Shown here one piece after another: positions 17,622 to 25,895 of a stretch of DNA of 64,000 nucleotides (position 1 is the stretch's first letter; each line of letters opens with the position of its first letter). The translations under genes were made by a program, and so were the position numbers. The notes under the pieces are model-generated. The model did not search any database. It was not told where the DNA came from and was given only the letters and a program-made list of their open reading frames with translations. The DNA is from an uncultured Pelagibacteraceae bacterium (lineage in GTDB: Bacteria; Pseudomonadota; Alphaproteobacteria; Pelagibacterales; Pelagibacteraceae), in NCBI GenBank assembly GCA_902619835.1, contig CACNFS010000001.1, positions 1 through 64,000 of the forward strand. The letters are read 5' to 3'.

Positions 17622-20387
17622 TTAATACCCCTTTATCATTTTTTTACTTATATTATTAAGTCCTGTAGCATTTGATCCTTTAATCATAAGGTAATCATTA
17701 TCAGATATAATATTATTTAAAGTAAAATCTATATCTTCATCTACCTGAAAAATATTTCCTCGCTTATTTTTATTGATATTTTTGTATGTAATGAGAGTTT
17801 TATTGCCCTTAATGAATACTTTATCTATATCCGAATTGTTAATAACTTTTGAAATATTTTTATGTAATTTCTCTGATTTTTTACCCAACTCAAGCATATC
17901 ACCTAATAATAAATATTTTTTAAATTTATTCTTTTTTATAGAGTTAAAATTTTTAATAGCATTTTTGACTGAAAGCGGATTAGCGTTGTAGCTTTCGTCA
18001 ATAAGGTTAAAATTTTTTTTATATCTTTTAACCTTATGTACTTTTCCTCTACCTTCGGTTAGCTCATATTTATTAAAACTTTCTATAACTTTATCAAAAT
18101 TTAAGTTCATTACTTTCAATAAAGCCAAAGATGATAGTGCATTAAGGATATTCATATTATTCATATTTATGCTTAGAACTTTTTTTTTAATTTTTACTTT
18201 AAGTAAAATTTTTTCTCCTTTCTTAAAAATTTTAATTGGAAAAATATCAGATTTTTTATTCATCCCAAAAGAAACTATCTTGAGATTTTTAATTTTGGCT
18301 CTTTTTGCAAAGTAATTATAATATTTATCGTCTCGATTTAATATTATTGTACCTTTTTCTTGAATGTTATTAATTATTTCTCCTTTTGCCTTAGCTATAC
18401 CCTTTAAATTTTTGAAGTTTTCAATATGTGCTTCACCTACATTAGTTATTATGCCGATGTGTGGCTTAATCATTTTTGATAATTTATTTATTTCACCTGC
18501 TTTACTCATACCAACTTCAAATACTCCGTATCTATTATTTGTGCTTAACAAAGATAAACTTAAGGGTACGCCATAATGGTTATTGTAAGATTTCGGAGAA
18601 CAAAATGTTTTTCCAAAATTTTTTAATAATTCATTAATTAAATTTTTTAGCGAAGTTTTTCCTGCACTTCCAGTAATTGCAACAATTTTTGCAGTTGAAT
18701 ATTTTCTTTTTAGAATTGCAAAATTATTTAAAAAATTAAACTCATTTTTAACTTTTATTATAAATTTTTTTGGAAAATTTTTTAAAGTTTTTGAGGAAAT
18801 TATGTATTTTGCTCCTTTTTTTAAAGCTTCAGGAATAAATTTTACTCCATGATTATTTTTACCTTTAATTGTTAAAAATAGATTATTCTTTTTTAAAACT
18901 CTTGTATCAATAGCTATGCCATGAAAATTTTTTACATTAATATCACTTTTAATTTCATTCATAATTTTTTTGTTTTGTAAAAAATCAAAATAATTTATTG
19001 AATTTTTTTTCTTTTTAAATTTTATTTCTCTTATTATTTGCTTATCAGAGATCTTTAATATCTTATTCTTATAAATTTGCTCATTTTCGTGACCTTTTCC
19101 AGCAACTAAAATAATTTCATTTGGATCTGCATCAAGTATGGCGGTTTTAATTGCTTTGGCTCTGCTCCCAATATTAAAACAATTTTTATTTTTGATATTT
19201 TTAATAATTTCTTTTCTAATACTTTCAGGTTTTTCGTTTCTAGGATTGTCGTCAGTAACATAAATTTTTTTACAATTTTGACTAGCAATTTTTGCCATTA
19301 AGGGCCTTTTTTTAAAATCTCGATCACCACCACAACCAAATACTAAGGATATATTTTCAGTATTAGATTCTTTTAATGCTAGTAAAGCTTTCAAAAGTGC
19401 ATCTGGGGTATGAGCAAAATCTACATAAACTTTCACCCCATTAGGAAATTTTTTAATTAATTCTAACCGACCGTCAACATCTTTTATTTTTTTAATTGAA
19501 CTTAAAATTTTTTTTTCACTTAAATTCAAGATTTTTGCAGCTTCTATTGCCATTGAAAGATTTTTTAATTGGAAATCATTTAAATTAAAATTTTCAATTT
19601 TATTTAATTTATCTTTCGTAGAATTTATATCAATTAATCGAAATCCTCTTTTTTTTGAAATTTTTTTTAAAATTTTAAATTCATTTAAAAATTTATCAGA
19701 AATCACTGATTTATTTTTTGATAAAATTCTATTAAACAACATCAGTTTAGAATTTAAATAGTTCTTCATATTTTTATGATAATCCAAATGATCTTGGCTA
19801 AAGTTAGTAAAAACTCCAGCTTTTAAATTTATATGATCAATTCTATGTTGATTTAAACCGTGGCTAGAAGCCTCAATTATTACATTTTCTATTTTATTTT
19901 TTTTGATATTTTCAAGTATCTTATGAGTTAAAATAGGATCGGGTGAAGTTAGGTCAGTATTAATTTTTTTTTTCCTAAATTTGACTCCTAAAGTTCCAAT
20001 ATAGGCAACTGGAATCTTATTAATATTTAAAATCTGATAAAATAAGTCAGCTACAGATGTTTTACCGTTTGTTCCCGTGACAGCTATAATATTATTTGGT
20101 TTTAATTTGTAATATTTAGATGAAACTTCGCTTAAAAAATGTCTTACATTTAATTTTTTAATTATTAGAGCTGACTTGCTTCGATATTTACAGTTTTTAG
20201 AACAAATTACTACTGAAGCTCCATTTAAAATCGCCTCATCAATAAATCTTTCTCCATTAAATTTTCTTCCATTAATGGCAAAAAAAATAAATCCCTTTTG
20301 AATTTTTTTACTATTAGTTGATAAACCATGTATCCTGATATTTTTTTTTTCTGCAGGAAGATGATTAATTAGTTTTTTCAGCAACAT
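17622..20387 (-). CDS. murE-murF: Fused MurE-MurF ligase (tripeptide and pentapeptide synthases)
   Basis: One 921-residue frame carries two complete Mur ligases. The first half (about 1-460) is MurE: TGTNGKTSVA ATP loop (105-110), EASSHGLNQHR, FTNFSQDHLDYH, DFAHTPDAL, and the substrate motif DDNPRNE (379-385), whose DNPR core is the meso-diaminopimelate type. The second half (about 464-921) is MurF: IDTRVLKKNNLF, GSAGKTS ATP loop (573-578), GEAHIENF, DESYNANPLS and LLGDMLELG. The joint is a short lysine-rich stretch without stop or frameshift. I start at ATG 20387; an upstream GTG (20408) is less family-like. It lies where separate murE and murF normally stand, overlapping ftsI by 23 bp. MurE-MurF fusions are known in some other bacteria such as Bordetella. 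Confidence 0.95.
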   Translation of the reverse strand: MLLKKLINHLPAEKKNIRIHGLSTNSKKIQKGFIFFAINGRKFNGERFIDEAILNGASVVICSKNCKYRSKSALIIKKLNVRHFLSEVSSKYYKLKPNNIIAVTGTNGKTSVADLFYQILNINKIPVAYIGTLGVKFRKKKINTDLTSPDPILTHKILENIKKNKIENVIIEASSHGLNQHRIDHINLKAGVFTNFSQDHLDYHKNMKNYLNSKLMLFNRILSKNKSVISDKFLNEFKILKKISKKRGFRLIDINSTKDKLNKIENFNLNDFQLKNLSMAIEAAKILNLSEKKILSSIKKIKDVDGRLELIKKFPNGVKVYVDFAHTPDALLKALLALKESNTENISLVFGCGGDRDFKKRPLMAKIASQNCKKIYVTDDNPRNEKPESIRKEIIKNIKNKNCFNIGSRAKAIKTAILDADPNEIILVAGKGHENEQIYKNKILKISDKQIIREIKFKKKKNSINYFDFLQNKKIMNEIKSDINVKNFHGIAIDTRVLKKNNLFLTIKGKNNHGVKFIPEALKKGAKYIISSKTLKNFPKKFIIKVKNEFNFLNNFAILKRKYSTAKIVAITGSAGKTSLKNLINELLKNFGKTFCSPKSYNNHYGVPLSLSLLSTNNRYGVFEVGMSKAGEINKLSKMIKPHIGIITNVGEAHIENFKNLKGIAKAKGEIINNIQEKGTIILNRDDKYYNYFAKRAKIKNLKIVSFGMNKKSDIFPIKIFKKGEKILLKVKIKKKVLSINMNNMNILNALSSLALLKVMNLNFDKVIESFNKYELTEGRGKVHKVKRYKKNFNLIDESYNANPLSVKNAIKNFNSIKKNKFKKYLLLGDMLELGKKSEKLHKNISKVINNSDIDKVFIKGNKTLITYKNINKNKRGNIFQVDEDIDFTLNNIISDNDYLMIKGSNATGLNNISKKMIKGY

Positions 20388-22092
20388 ATTGATTAGTAAA
20401 ATCCTCACTTTTTATGGCTAAAATTGGTCCAATTTTTTCTATTATTTTGCCCGCTACATAAACTGAATTCCATCCAGCTTCGTTTCTAGAGCCTTTAATT
20501 TTCATGCCCCTATAATTGTAGATCAAATTTTTAGCAACTTTAGGATTTTCTAACATTACCAGAAGTACATATTTTGGGTTTTGTGATGGAAAAACAGATA
20601 TAAAAGTATTTAAATTTTCATTTTTATTTTTATAATTTTGTGATGTTCCAGTTTTTCCTCCAACGTAATATCCATCAATATCTGCAAGGCTTGCTGTGCC
20701 TGTTTCCTCTGTGACAACTTTTCTTAGGATTTTATTAATTTCTTTGCTAGTTCTTTGAGAAATTAATCTTTCATACGATTTTTTTTCAAATGATTTTGTT
20801 ATTTTTGGTTGAATTATTTTACCTCCGTTTACAAGTGAAGCATATACTGTAGCAGCTTGTAATGGCGTAGTAGTAATACCGTGTCCAAAAGAAACGGTTT
20901 CTAATTTACATTTGTTCCAATTAAAACTAACAGGCTGCCCCACTTCCTCTAATTTTAAGTTTGGGCTTTTTAGTAAATTTGATTTTTCAAAAAAACTTCT
21001 AAATTTTTCTTCACCTATTTTTCTAGCTAATAATAAAGTTCCTATATTGGATGACCTTACTAGAATTTCCTCGACTGTAAGATTTTTTGGAAATTCTTTG
21101 ATATCTGAAATTTGGTGTTTAGAACATTGTATTGAACGTGGAATATTTTCAACTATGGTATTTGTTTTTACAATGTCATTTTCAAGTGCTAAAGCAACTG
21201 TAAAAGTTTTAAAAATAGACCCAAGTTCGTAAACACCTTTTGTGATTTTATTTAGGTATTTTTTATCTTTTAAATCGGTTCTCATGTTTATGTCAAAATT
21301 TGGGAGAGAAGCTAAAGCTAAAATTTCACCATTCTTTGCATTCATTAATAAAGAACCGCCGCCAGTAGCATCAAATAGTTTAAGAGACTGTTCTAACTCT
21401 TTGCTGATTAAATGTTGAATATTGGTATCTAAAGTAAGTTTTAAAGGTTGTCCTAAAAGATTTTCATTTTTTAACTCTTTATCAAAAGACTTTTCAACGC
21501 CTGATATACCATAATTATCGTAATCAACTTGACCAATTATATGACTGAATAAGTTAGAGTGGGTATAAATTCTAGATTGAAATGGTTCAAAAATTATGCT
21601 CTTCTCTCCCAGTTTCCATAATTTTTCTTTATCAATTTGGTTAATACGTTTTTTTAGATAAAAATACTTATTTTTTTTTAATTTTCTTTCTATTTCAGAA
21701 ATGTTAAGTTCTGGAAAATTTACTCTAAGCTTAATTAAAAAATTTTCCTTATTATTAATTAAGGAAGGATTGATTGCAGCATGGAATGATTTTACATTCC
21801 TTGATATTAAAGTTCCGTTTCTATCTACAATATCTCTTCTTAGAAAACTAAATTTGTTTATTTCATTATTATTATTATAAATTTCAATATTATTTAGAGA
21901 TAAATGTATTATTCTAATTCCAAAAATAAATATAAGTGAAAAAAATAAAAAAAATAAAAGGTAAATTCTATCCTGAAGAATATTATTTTTTTGTGAAAAT
22001 TTATTTTTTTTGTTAGTTTCAATATAATCTTCAAAATAAAAACTAGCTTGATTTACATTGAGGTTTTTATTTCTTTTTTGTTTTTTTTTCAT
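20365..22092 (-). CDS. ftsI: Peptidoglycan transpeptidase FtsI (PBP3)
   Basis: Septal class B penicillin-binding protein working with FtsW. The 575 residues show a 40-residue cytoplasmic tail, one membrane anchor (43-61), a dimerisation region starting RRDIVDRNGTLIS, and the transpeptidase domain with Ser292-x-x-Lys295 (GSIFK), SSN (347-349) and KTGT (480-483). GHGITTTPLQ is also present. Length matches E. coli FtsI (588). The ATG at 22092 overlaps the ftsL-like gene by 26 bp and the end overlaps murE-murF. No lipobox or secretory cleavage site is evident. Confidence 0.97.
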   Translation of the reverse strand: MKKKQKRNKNLNVNQASFYFEDYIETNKKNKFSQKNNILQDRIYLLFFLFFSLIFIFGIRIIHLSLNNIEIYNNNNEINKFSFLRRDIVDRNGTLISRNVKSFHAAINPSLINNKENFLIKLRVNFPELNISEIERKLKKNKYFYLKKRINQIDKEKLWKLGEKSIIFEPFQSRIYTHSNLFSHIIGQVDYDNYGISGVEKSFDKELKNENLLGQPLKLTLDTNIQHLISKELEQSLKLFDATGGGSLLMNAKNGEILALASLPNFDINMRTDLKDKKYLNKITKGVYELGSIFKTFTVALALENDIVKTNTIVENIPRSIQCSKHQISDIKEFPKNLTVEEILVRSSNIGTLLLARKIGEEKFRSFFEKSNLLKSPNLKLEEVGQPVSFNWNKCKLETVSFGHGITTTPLQAATVYASLVNGGKIIQPKITKSFEKKSYERLISQRTSKEINKILRKVVTEETGTASLADIDGYYVGGKTGTSQNYKNKNENLNTFISVFPSQNPKYVLLVMLENPKVAKNLIYNYRGMKIKGSRNEAGWNSVYVAGKIIEKIGPILAIKSEDFTNQYVAEKTN

Positions 22093-23426: not shown

Positions 23427-24938
23427 TTAAAATTTTTGTCTTCTTAAAAAAGCTGGTATTTCGAAATCTTCGTCTTCATTATTTTCCGGCTCAAAAAGAC
23501 TATCAACTTCATTATTTTCAGTTGTTTCCTCAATTTCATGACTATCTTGACCTTGCTCATCTGAAAAGAGTTTCGGAGTATATTCTAGATCTTTATTTTC
23601 ATCTAAATGATTTTCTGCTGGAAACGAATCTTGATTTTGTAAATCATTATTATTTTCAATGTAAGAAGCGCTTTCAATTGATACCCCGGCTGGAACTTCA
23701 TTATTAATAATTGACTCTCTTTGATTGTTTAAAGAGTTTTCTGCTATTTTATTTTCCTCTTTACTTTCAAAACTATCAATTAAAGAATTTTGCTCCTCAT
23801 TATTTTTTAACTCATAATTTTCATCAAGCCTTAAAGCAGTTGCTCCATCGATAGAATTAATTACATTATGTTCTATCTTATTCTTTGAAAAAAGATTTTC
23901 AGAAAAATTAACGCCGCCATTATTTGATCCATTAACAACATTCAAGACTGGTCGAGAGTCCTGATTAACTGTTGAGCCATTTAAAGATGTGGCCACTATT
24001 GAAACTCTAATCTTACCATTCATACTATCATCTTTTATTGCGCCAAATATAAGCTCGGCTTCAGGATCTACCTCCGCTCTTATCTTGTTGACAGCTGCGT
24101 CAACTTCAAAAAGCTTAATATCGCTTCCTCCAGTTATATTAACTAATAAACCTTTTGCTCCCTGCAAAGTATACTCATCTATCAAAGGATTGTTTAAAGC
24201 TAATTCTGTAGCGGCCATTGCTCTATTTTCACCATCAGACTCACCAGTTCCCATCATTGCTTTTCCGCTAGAACTCATTACTGTCTCCACATCAGCAAAG
24301 TCTAAATTTATCATGCCAGGTCTAACCATTAAGTCTGTAATACTTTGGACTCCATGTTTCAAAACATCATTAGAAAGACTAAAAGACTCTTCAAAGCCTG
24401 TTGCCTCATTAGCAATTTTAAAAAGATTCTGATTTGGAACGACAATAGTTGTATCTAAATGTCTTTTAAGTTCCTCCAGACCTGCATGAGCTCTTCTCAT
24501 TCTTTTTGGACCCTCGTATGCAAAAGGTAATGTTGTAACGCCAACGGTTAAAATATTCATTTCTCTAGCTGCTTTTGCGATTACATGTGAAGCTCCAGTG
24601 CCAGTGCCGCCACCCATTCCCGATGCTATAAAAACCATATTACTTCCTTGGATATAATTCACAATTTCATTAATTGATTCATCAGCGGCTGCTTGACCGA
24701 TATCATGCTTAGCCCCGGCTCCAAGGCCTTTAGTTAAATTCATTCCAATTTGAATTTTTGCATCAGCTTTGCTCATTTTAAGATCTTGAGCATCAGTGTT
24801 AACAGCTACAAACTCTACACCTTGCATTCCTGCTTCAATCATGGCATTAATCGCATTCCCTCCAGCCCCACCAACTCCAATAACTAGTATTCTTGGTTTA
24901 AGTTCTCTTAATTCGCCACCTCCAACATTAATACTCAT
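23427..24938 (-). CDS. ftsZ: Cell division GTPase FtsZ
   Basis: Tubulin-like GTPase that forms the Z ring. The 503-residue protein has VIGVGGAGGNAIN (19-31), the GTP-binding GGGTGTG (109-115), a T7 loop NLDFADV (211-217) and the full C-terminal GTPase subdomain to about 320. A long acidic, asparagine/glutamate-rich linker (about 325-488) follows, and the conserved C-terminal peptide EIPAFLRRQ ends the protein; that peptide normally binds FtsA and other partners. The start is ATG 24938, overlapping the mraZ stop as ATGA, with AAAGGAG 7 nt upstream. Its place between mraZ and rsmH is unusual; ftsZ normally follows ftsA. Confidence 0.98.
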   Translation of the reverse strand: MSINVGGGELRELKPRILVIGVGGAGGNAINAMIEAGMQGVEFVAVNTDAQDLKMSKADAKIQIGMNLTKGLGAGAKHDIGQAAADESINEIVNYIQGSNMVFIASGMGGGTGTGASHVIAKAAREMNILTVGVTTLPFAYEGPKRMRRAHAGLEELKRHLDTTIVVPNQNLFKIANEATGFEESFSLSNDVLKHGVQSITDLMVRPGMINLDFADVETVMSSSGKAMMGTGESDGENRAMAATELALNNPLIDEYTLQGAKGLLVNITGGSDIKLFEVDAAVNKIRAEVDPEAELIFGAIKDDSMNGKIRVSIVATSLNGSTVNQDSRPVLNVVNGSNNGGVNFSENLFSKNKIEHNVINSIDGATALRLDENYELKNNEEQNSLIDSFESKEENKIAENSLNNQRESIINNEVPAGVSIESASYIENNNDLQNQDSFPAENHLDENKDLEYTPKLFSDEQGQDSHEIEETTENNEVDSLFEPENNEDEDFEIPAFLRRQKF

Positions 24939-25399
24939 AACGGTTCTCCTTTCTTTTTATTTTCCCATTTTAAGTTTGATCTATTTTGAAAAGCTTTTTT
25001 TCTTGCAAAAGCTCTAAATTTTTCAAAATTTTTTGGCTCCCAAATTTGAAAAGTTTTGCCCTGACCTACAAATAAAACACTATTTTTAATATTCGCATGA
25101 TTTAATAATTTTTCTGATATAGAAACTCTACCTTCAGTATCAAATTGTAAATTCTCACTCTCGGATAATACTGAAGTTGCAAAAAAATCTCTTTTTTCTT
25201 CAAAAGGATTTAAAGAGTCAATTGTGTTTGATAATTTTTCAATTCTATCTTGAGAGCAAGCCTCTAAGGCAGAGTGATTAAAAGAGGCGTAAGTTATAAA
25301 ACCATTGTAACCCATGGAATTAAGATATGATCTAAAGGTTGCTGGCACAGATACCCGACCTTTCTTGTCTATTTTGTTTTCGTAACTTGACAGAAACAT
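24935..25399 (-). CDS. mraZ: Transcriptional regulator MraZ
   Basis: AbrB-fold DNA-binding protein that represses the dcw promoter in E. coli by binding phased TGGG repeats. The 154 residues contain two tandem swapped-hairpin repeats with the marker pattern: NKIDKKGRVSVPATFR (about 8-23) and FDTEGRVSISEKLL (about 86-99), the first being near-canonical 'iDxKGRvsvPaxfR'. Length fits (143-155). The start ATG is at 25399. Three TGGG boxes at 25451-25475 overlap the upstream promoter, which fits autoregulation. Its stop overlaps the ftsZ start (ATGA). A frame on the same strand through 25520 is an overlap artefact. Confidence 0.96.
   Translation of the reverse strand: MFLSSYENKIDKKGRVSVPATFRSYLNSMGYNGFITYASFNHSALEACSQDRIEKLSNTIDSLNPFEEKRDFFATSVLSESENLQFDTEGRVSISEKLLNHANIKNSVLFVGQGKTFQIWEPKNFEKFRAFARKKAFQNRSNLKWENKKKGEPL
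24946..24952 (-). promoter_or_regulatory. Strong Shine-Dalgarno site of ftsZ
   Basis: AAAGGAG on the minus strand lies 7 nt before the ftsZ ATG at 24938, inside the last codons of mraZ. It is one of the clearest ribosome binding sites in the window, where most starts have weak or no purine-rich leader. It fixes the FtsZ start and suggests efficient independent initiation in addition to coupling at the ATGA overlap. Confidence 0.75.
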
Positions 25400-25450
25400 A
25401 CTTATTCAAAAACCTCTGTAATAAATTTAACCTCAAATCACCCTCCATTT

Positions 25451-25475
25451 TGGGATTATTTGGGATATTATGGGT
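25451..25475 (-). promoter_or_regulatory. MraZ-type operator: three TGGG boxes with 10 bp period
   Basis: TGGGA at 25451, TGGGA at 25461 and TGGGT at 25471 (read on the plus strand) repeat with an exact 10 bp step. E. coli MraZ binds TGGGN repeats separated by 5 nt, the same period. The boxes overlap the -10 element and the predicted start of mraZ transcription, so bound MraZ should block RNA polymerase. The repeat is seen directly; binding is inferred from the family. Confidence 0.75.
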
Positions 25476-25492
25476 TTTTAAAAAATAGTCAA
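25465..25492 (-). promoter_or_regulatory. Promoter of the mraZ-ftsZ division cluster
   Basis: On the minus strand TTGACT (25492-25487) and TAATAT (25470-25465) are separated by 16 nt, a good sigma-70 match. Transcription would begin near 25458, about 58 nt before the mraZ ATG. The -10 element lies between two of the TGGG boxes. It is the only convincing promoter seen ahead of the long run of overlapping genes down to about 4.1 kb. Inference from sequence only. Confidence 0.7.
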
Positions 25493-25536
25493 TAAGATTG
25501 TATAAGCTAAGAAAGTACAAAAGCAGAACAAAAAAT

Positions 25537-25895
25537 GGAAGTGCTAGATAATCTATAAGCCGGGTTCTGTCATTGAAGATGTCATTTCTCTAGGCTTAAA
25601 TTCGCATCTAAGCTCAAGCGGTTAACCCTGAAGACTAACTAAAGACGGTTTTTAGCAATTGCAATGTCTTCTCTATTTAACCTTGCTCCCAGTGGGGTTT
25701 GCCGTGCGTTTTTTGTTGCCAAAAAACCGGTGAGCTCTTACCTCGCCGTTTCACCCTTGCCTTGATTAGGCGGTTTATTTTCTGTGGCACTATCCCTGAA
25801 GTCACCTCCGCCAGCAATTAACTGGCACTGTGTCTTTATGGAGCCCGGACTTTCCTCTATAAATTAGTTTATAGCGACAATCCAATTATCTAGCA
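25537..25895 (-). ncRNA. rnpB: RNase P RNA (M1 RNA, class A)
   Basis: Catalytic RNA that matures tRNA 5' ends. On the minus strand the conserved 5' block GAGGAAAGTCCGGGCTCC follows a short P2/P3 region, and the 3' end carries AGAACCCGGCTTATAGAT. Helix P1 closes the molecule: TGCTAGATAAT (25895-25885) pairs with ATTATCTAGCA (25552-25542). The CR-II/CR-III-like segment GGCGGAGGTGACTTCAGGG is also present. Length near 355 nt fits type A RNase P RNA. A T-run just after P1 (ATTTTTTG) may end transcription. End positions are good to a few nucleotides. Confidence 0.95.

Follow-up and report, generated by a model that had tools for sequence, protein, structure and literature searches.

The window analyzed here, a stretch of 64,000 nucleotides from an uncultured Pelagibacteraceae bacterium, carries an mraZ gene on its minus strand at 24935..25399, with the ATG at 25399. 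The gene was assigned from its open reading frame and from Pfam and NCBIfam profiles. The full-length product of 154 aa, referred to below as MraZ-L, contains the two repeats of Pfam PF02381 (72.4 bits in the profile search against a cut-off of 23) and scored 173.8 with NCBIfam NF001477, which has a cut-off of 162; the remaining MraZ equivalog models stayed below cut-off. In a scan of named genomes, MraZ-L was 74-91% identical at the protein level to loci titled Pelagibacteraceae, Pelagibacterales or Candidatus Pelagibacter among the 80 loci kept. A single AlphaFold2 model (mean pLDDT 68.7, 10 sequences), used solely to place strands and helix, showed strands at residues 5-10 and 15-17 and a helix at residues 20-28. 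A Foldseek search with this model matched MraZ structures at TM values of 0.46-0.50 of the query.

The ftsZ gene (23427..24938, minus strand; open reading frame, Pfam and NCBIfam) follows mraZ directly. The mraZ stop and the ftsZ start share 4 nt (ATGA), and ftsZ has a Shine-Dalgarno (SD) sequence of its own. The gene order continues with rsmH, a weak match to FtsL below the cut-off, an FtsI-type transpeptidase and a MurE-MurF fusion, the latter a single protein of 928 aa encoded at 17622-20408 on the minus strand. The first-pass annotation had pointed out ftsZ directly behind mraZ as notable. The arrangement is true of the window, but it is common to the sister family (18/21 loci) and was also found by motif in 26/30 loci of the genus and in 3/3 loci from other genera. 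Among 25 other loci of the class, rsmH was seen in 12 and ftsZ in only one, which is from Pelagibacteraceae. In two contigs (G119:C6 and G160:C10) the mraZ open frame extends to 646-648 aa, and mraZ and ftsZ may be fused there. Upstream of mraZ and on the same strand lies the RNase P RNA gene (25540..25893, minus strand); for HTCC1062, an excerpt of PMC2704228 places the RNase P RNA between mraZ and ybjR. A search for terminator-like sites between the RNase P RNA gene and the mraZ promoter (25493-25539, minus strand) gave none, so read-through from the RNase P RNA gene into mraZ is possible.

Three TGGG boxes on the plus strand, reading CCCA on the mraZ strand, were confirmed at an exact 10-bp step: box 1, the most distant from the gene, at 25471..25474, box 2 at 25461..25464 and box 3 at 25451..25454. 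They coincide with a predicted promoter, TTGACT-N16-TAATAT, at 25492-25465 on the minus strand. The -35 element TTGACT is at 25487..25492 and the -10 element TAATAT at 25465..25470, where it occupies the whole of the gap that separates boxes 1 and 2; the overlap of operator and -10 element described by the first-pass annotation is real. Two promoter-like sites were found in the window with 1.3 expected from shuffled sequences, which is weak evidence without conservation. When up to two mismatches were allowed, the box triple matched twice in the window against 0.47 expected, and 8 of 100 shuffles also reached two matches; just the triple at mraZ was exact. Across the 925 kb of the genome, which is about 80% complete, this triple was the sole match at up to one mismatch, and the reversed-pattern control gave 0. 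A regulon extending beyond mraZ was considered and rejected, since no second triple at up to one mismatch occurs in these 925 kb. Two-box look-alikes at one mismatch (6 forward and 3 reverse, compared to 1 and 4 in the control) were at about control level.

Conservation was studied in 128 loci of the genus with a readable mraZ start (G030 was dropped because its mraZ start is lost at a contig edge) and in 102 loci from 101 genomes of other Pelagibacteraceae genera, a set in which G488 gives two loci and which leans to one large genus (g6). Among all 230 loci there are 200 distinct 5' ends. L195 was dropped as the same locus as L194, and one of 22 sister-family loci was dropped because its start is missing. 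The loci are related, and the counts given here are not counts of independent events. All of the evidence comes from sequence, and many of the genomes are single-cell or metagenome assemblies.

All relatives examined keep the boxes. The three boxes are exact in 128/128 genus loci, and in the other genera three boxes are found in 90/102 loci and two in 12/102. Alignment of the first 30 genus loci showed conservation of the boxes and of the -35 and -10 elements, the -35 element being in register in 26 loci and shifted by one base in 4, but not of the flanking sequence. In the sister family five boxes are present in 16, four in 3 and three in 2 of 21 loci; loci L043-L059 of this family have up to five boxes in the 10-bp register instead of three. 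A class-wide set of 29 alphaproteobacterial loci, 25 of them readable by motif and L179 among these belonging to Pelagibacteraceae, was evaluated as raw counts. On the coding strand ahead of mraZ, 23/25 readable loci have at least one CCCA pair at a 10-bp step and 0/25 a TGGG pair. The layout of the boxes is not peculiar to a streamlined genome, as the CCCA pair is present in nearly all of these readable loci. The three boxes have the form of an MraZ operator, and the predicted operator is supported by its conservation. The interpretation of the first-pass annotation stands in that the gene is mraZ and the boxes are conserved and operator-like in form; their orientation and place are unlike those of E. 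coli, and the layout is ordinary. As judged from these comparisons, the predicted operator is conserved and ordinary for alphaproteobacteria, and is set apart from the E. coli operator by its orientation and position.

The unusual feature of the locus is not the operator but an overlapping leader frame, which the first-pass annotation had not mentioned. Directly after box 3 the genus carries a conserved GGAGGG followed by TTG. The frame opened by this TTG crosses the mraZ ATG one base out and ends within mraZ. In the window the SD sequence GGAGGG is located at 25441..25446, and the frame (25332..25436, both on the minus strand) comprises 34 codons from TTG at 25436-25434 to TAG at 25334-25332, with mraZ in the +1 frame relative to the leader. 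GGAG followed by a start codon is present in 115/128 genus loci. In these 115 loci, the leader frame holds 2 stops between its start and the mraZ ATG, and the other two frames hold 180 and 202. Both leader-frame stops come from L090, which has GTG in the usual place of the TTG and for which the rule in the script chose a neighboring ATG. Column-shuffled leaders contained 37.9 +/- 4.2 stops, with a minimum of 25 in 1000 shuffles, compared to 0 observed in 92 distinct leaders. The frame was also recovered by tests that are blind to it. The distance from leader start to ATG is 1 mod 3 in 111/115 genus loci; a scan of the other genera found an SD-preceded ATG in 51/102 loci, at 1 mod 3 in 51/51, and when TTG and GTG starts were allowed as well, in 53/56. 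A start upstream of the ATG exists in the leader frame in 225/227 out-of-frame loci, compared to 9/227 and 25/227 in the remaining two frames. On the genus tree the length of the leader underwent about 21 parsimony changes, its frame only 4.

The set of 227 loci was obtained by removing three loci (L083, L109 and L147) on the basis of their leader frame, not their codon content. In these three, leader and mraZ share one frame and MraZ is extended at its N terminus like that of the sister family, in which the SD-TTG is in frame with mraZ in 29/30 loci; the out-of-frame leader of Pelagibacteraceae aligns in place with the in-frame extension of the sister family. A clade of the genus (L006, L008, L011, L069 and L072) has lost the TTG, and the frame is still open except in L006, where an A run is longer by one base. 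No leader start in frame is present in L006 and L229, and the start region is changed in L024, L131, L141 and L156.

Inside mraZ the leader frame has left a clear footprint. Codons 1-19 contain no leader-frame stop in any of the 227 out-of-frame loci from 13 genera, whereas synonymous recoding with the family's own codon usage predicts 3.07 stops per locus and leaves a locus free of them with a probability of 0.7%. Over the same codons the third frame has at least one stop in 204/227 loci, and further down, in codons 24-42, the leader frame itself has a stop in 218/226. Codons 6 and 8 end in C in 227/227 loci and codon 11 in 226/227. Within the genus, codon 6 is TAC, TTC or CAC in 128/128 loci, codon 8 is AAC in 126 and codon 11 is GAC in 126; codon 10 ends in T in one locus only, and where codon 14 is GGT, codon 15 is never AGN. 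Codon usage in the genus is normal in codons 24-66, except for Ser36. The constraint is gone where the leader is in frame with mraZ: the sister family has stops in the -1 frame in 21/21 and 30/30 loci of two overlapping sets, and L109 and L147 have gained leader-frame stops. L083 is still intact. An antisense frame was considered and set aside on inspection, since reverse complements of stops occur among the forward codons. Together, the sequence comparisons of the leader frame argue strongly that selection keeps it open, and hence that it is translated and matters. Translation of the leader is all but certain, given that stops are absent from all 227 loci and that the footprint is missing from the sister family and has been eroded in two of the three in-frame exceptions.

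Codon 18 of mraZ (GTG18; 25348-25346 in the window) is GTG in 227/227 out-of-frame loci, compared to just 6/139 valine codons downstream and to 2/21 loci at codon 18 in the sister family. The sole genus exception is GTA in the in-frame locus L147. Initiation at GTG18 would give a candidate short product of 137 aa, MraZ-S (24935..25348, minus strand), which retains only the second Pfam MraZ repeat and is without strands 5-10 and 15-17 of the model. The leader ends close to this candidate downstream start in 227/227 loci, after mraZ codon 22 (163 loci) or codon 20 (64 loci) and nowhere else, a placement reached by 78% of recoded sequences; the 13 loci lacking a stop at 22 all have one at 20. Counted from the first base of GTG18, the stop starts 8 or 14 nt further downstream. 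A purine-rich, SD-like stretch, AAAGGTCGG, lies upstream of GTG18 at 25355..25363 (minus strand); it is weak in the window and stronger in many relatives. Calculated anti-SD pairing averaged -11.1 at the leader start, -9.55 at GTG18 and -5.9 at the mraZ ATG, with a background of -4.5. For GTG18 the corresponding value was -8.14 in sequences recoded with protein and open leader kept, and -7.88 in the sister family. Simple SD motifs precede GTG18 in 134/227 loci (59%), compared to 52% after recoding. The SD-like stretch is in part a consequence of encoding the residues KKGR, and recoded sequences score nearly as well; measured against recoding, the enrichment appears to be real but small. Arg15 is encoded by AGG in 111/227 loci, compared to 9/233 arginine codons downstream. 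Gly14 of the D-K-K-G-R DNA-binding loop is replaced by W, R or M in 16 loci (L226-L237, L242 and L243 from genera near g229, and L123, L133 and L148). AGG always follows the replaced codon, and most of the 16 loci thereby have a GGAGG-like sequence before GTG18.

Several explanations of these observations were weighed. One is that there is an ordinary MraZ operator and nothing else, and that relatedness and codon bias have left the frame open as a by-product. Genes without a -1 stop in codons 1-19 do occur by chance, as in 7/54 genes of the window. Against this, the same gene goes from 0/227 to 218/226 loci with stops in its next stretch, and stops are found at all 21 sister-family loci and have appeared in two of the three in-frame loci. 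A by-product is hardly credible. Joining of the leader to mraZ by a programmed +1 frameshift or by transcript slippage, to produce an N-terminally extended or altered MraZ, would fit the alignment of the leader with the in-frame extension of the sister family and the offset of +1. A shift near the ATG, however, would not need the leader to stay open for 18 more codons, and we regard this explanation as very improbable. Programmed frameshifting was rejected both for the leader stop and for the surroundings of the ATG, as no constant shift-prone codon was seen by eye, the residues before the stop vary and there are two stop places.

Two other explanations remain live. The leader may be a pure decoy, which just diverts ribosomes from the SD-poor start of MraZ and keeps MraZ scarce, GTG18 then being no start codon. 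The SD sequence is far better at the leader start than at the mraZ ATG, the leader start, its frame and its openness are all conserved, and stops near the ATG, which would permit restart there, are avoided. A decoy nevertheless leaves unexplained why codon 18 is GTG and why the leader stops at 20 or 22 in every one of the 227 loci, and is considered unlikely. Alternatively the locus may contain an overlapping gene, whose basic leader peptide of about 25-50 aa is itself functional and has the alanine at codon 18|19 as one of its residues. The constant GTG18 could in that case serve to preserve an alanine of the leader peptide. Entropies at leader codon positions 1, 2 and 3 are 0.93, 1.14 and 1.29, with variation rising from the first position to the third, and alanine is present in 228/228 peptides that reach codon 18|19. 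On the other hand, neither the length nor the sequence of the portion ahead of the mraZ ATG is constant, lysine and glutamate swap freely at several overlap positions and no Pfam family scored above cut-off. A functional peptide is rated as rather unlikely.

The reading preferred here, to which we assign a probability of roughly 0.55 on the sequence evidence, is that mraZ is controlled in two layers, by an MraZ operator at the promoter and by a leader that bypasses the first mraZ start and allows a restart yielding MraZ-S. In the first layer, MraZ would bind the three boxes around the -10 element and shut its own promoter and with it the operon mraZ-ftsZ-rsmH-ftsL-ftsI-murEF; the operator form is present in the DNA, and binding is inferred. 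In the second layer, a start codon on the mRNA, usually SD-preceded in the genus, opens the leader frame across the mraZ ATG. Ribosomes on the leader would pass over the start of MraZ-L, which has a poor SD sequence, and would terminate at mraZ codon 20 or 22, next to GTG18 with its SD-like stretch in front. Restart at GTG18 in the mraZ frame would then produce MraZ-S, a protein without the first strand pair and the D-x-x-G-R loop of the AbrB-like fold. Traffic on the leader would keep full-length, DNA-binding MraZ low while ribosomes flow through mraZ to ftsZ. MraZ-S might dilute MraZ-L in its rings, or might merely serve the flow of ribosomes towards ftsZ. With half of a folded repeat missing, MraZ-S may be unstable. 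The more specific proposal, that mraZ in Pelagibacteraceae has three nested starts and that the leader sets the ratio of long, DNA-binding MraZ to short MraZ without the first DNA-binding hairpin, is tentative, at slightly less than even odds.

SAR11 genomes are extremely streamlined. A second frame through the start of mraZ in 13 sampled genera is therefore costly and must do something. Overproduction of MraZ is toxic in E. coli. If the two-layer reading is true, a translational switch lies on top of transcriptional autoregulation of the division cluster in very abundant ocean bacteria. Translational control of MraZ can be put to a direct test at this locus. The annotation of mraZ in Pelagibacteraceae overlooks a frame that is almost certainly translated, and perhaps another product as well. 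The family also provides a natural experiment, with a sister family in frame, in-frame exceptions and a codon footprint that decays once the frame is lost. A literature search, with subscription journals mostly outside it, found no report of an overlapping mraZ frame, and a search for overlapping genes and translation initiation in SAR11 gave no relevant paper.

Eraso et al. 2014 reportedly located an operator for E. coli MraZ at the mraZ promoter. Its layout resembles that of the window, with three four-base boxes that precede mraZ at the division-cluster promoter and repeat every 10 bp exactly. E. coli K-12 carries TGGG three times with this period, and the likeness in period noted by the first-pass annotation is correct. 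The boxes, however, read TGGG on the mraZ strand in E. coli K-12 and CCCA on the mraZ strand in the window. The operator of Eraso et al. 2014 is described in PMC8475190 and PMC7761207. According to PMC7761207, the -10 element precedes the boxes in E. coli and B. cenocepacia, whereas in the window it fills a spacer between boxes. The MraZ box of Mollicutes is AAAGTG[T/G] according to Fisunov et al. 2016, as cited in an excerpt of PMC8475190, and differs from the TGGG boxes of the window. In Mollicutes and in the structures of MraZ with promoter DNA, 9r4j and 9sz7, direct repeats are bound by MraZ rings, and the MraZ of the window is a relative in sequence and fold.

A possible leader peptide upstream of mraZ is also described for another alphaproteobacterium, Rhodobacter sphaeroides, where the available part of PMC5089854 places a possible leader-peptide sORF in the mraZ 5' UTR. 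That sORF overlaps the UpsM terminator in a leader of 268 nt and is said in the same part to be limited to R. sphaeroides species. The Pelagibacteraceae leader, in contrast, overlaps mraZ itself and is family-wide. By the criteria stated in PMC3711429, the arrangement of leader stop and GTG18 is similar to stop-start translational coupling, the leader stop being within 20 nt of a candidate downstream start that has an SD-like stretch. Unlike the usual case of such coupling, the downstream start in Pelagibacteraceae would be located inside a gene that has its own upstream start, and two products would result.
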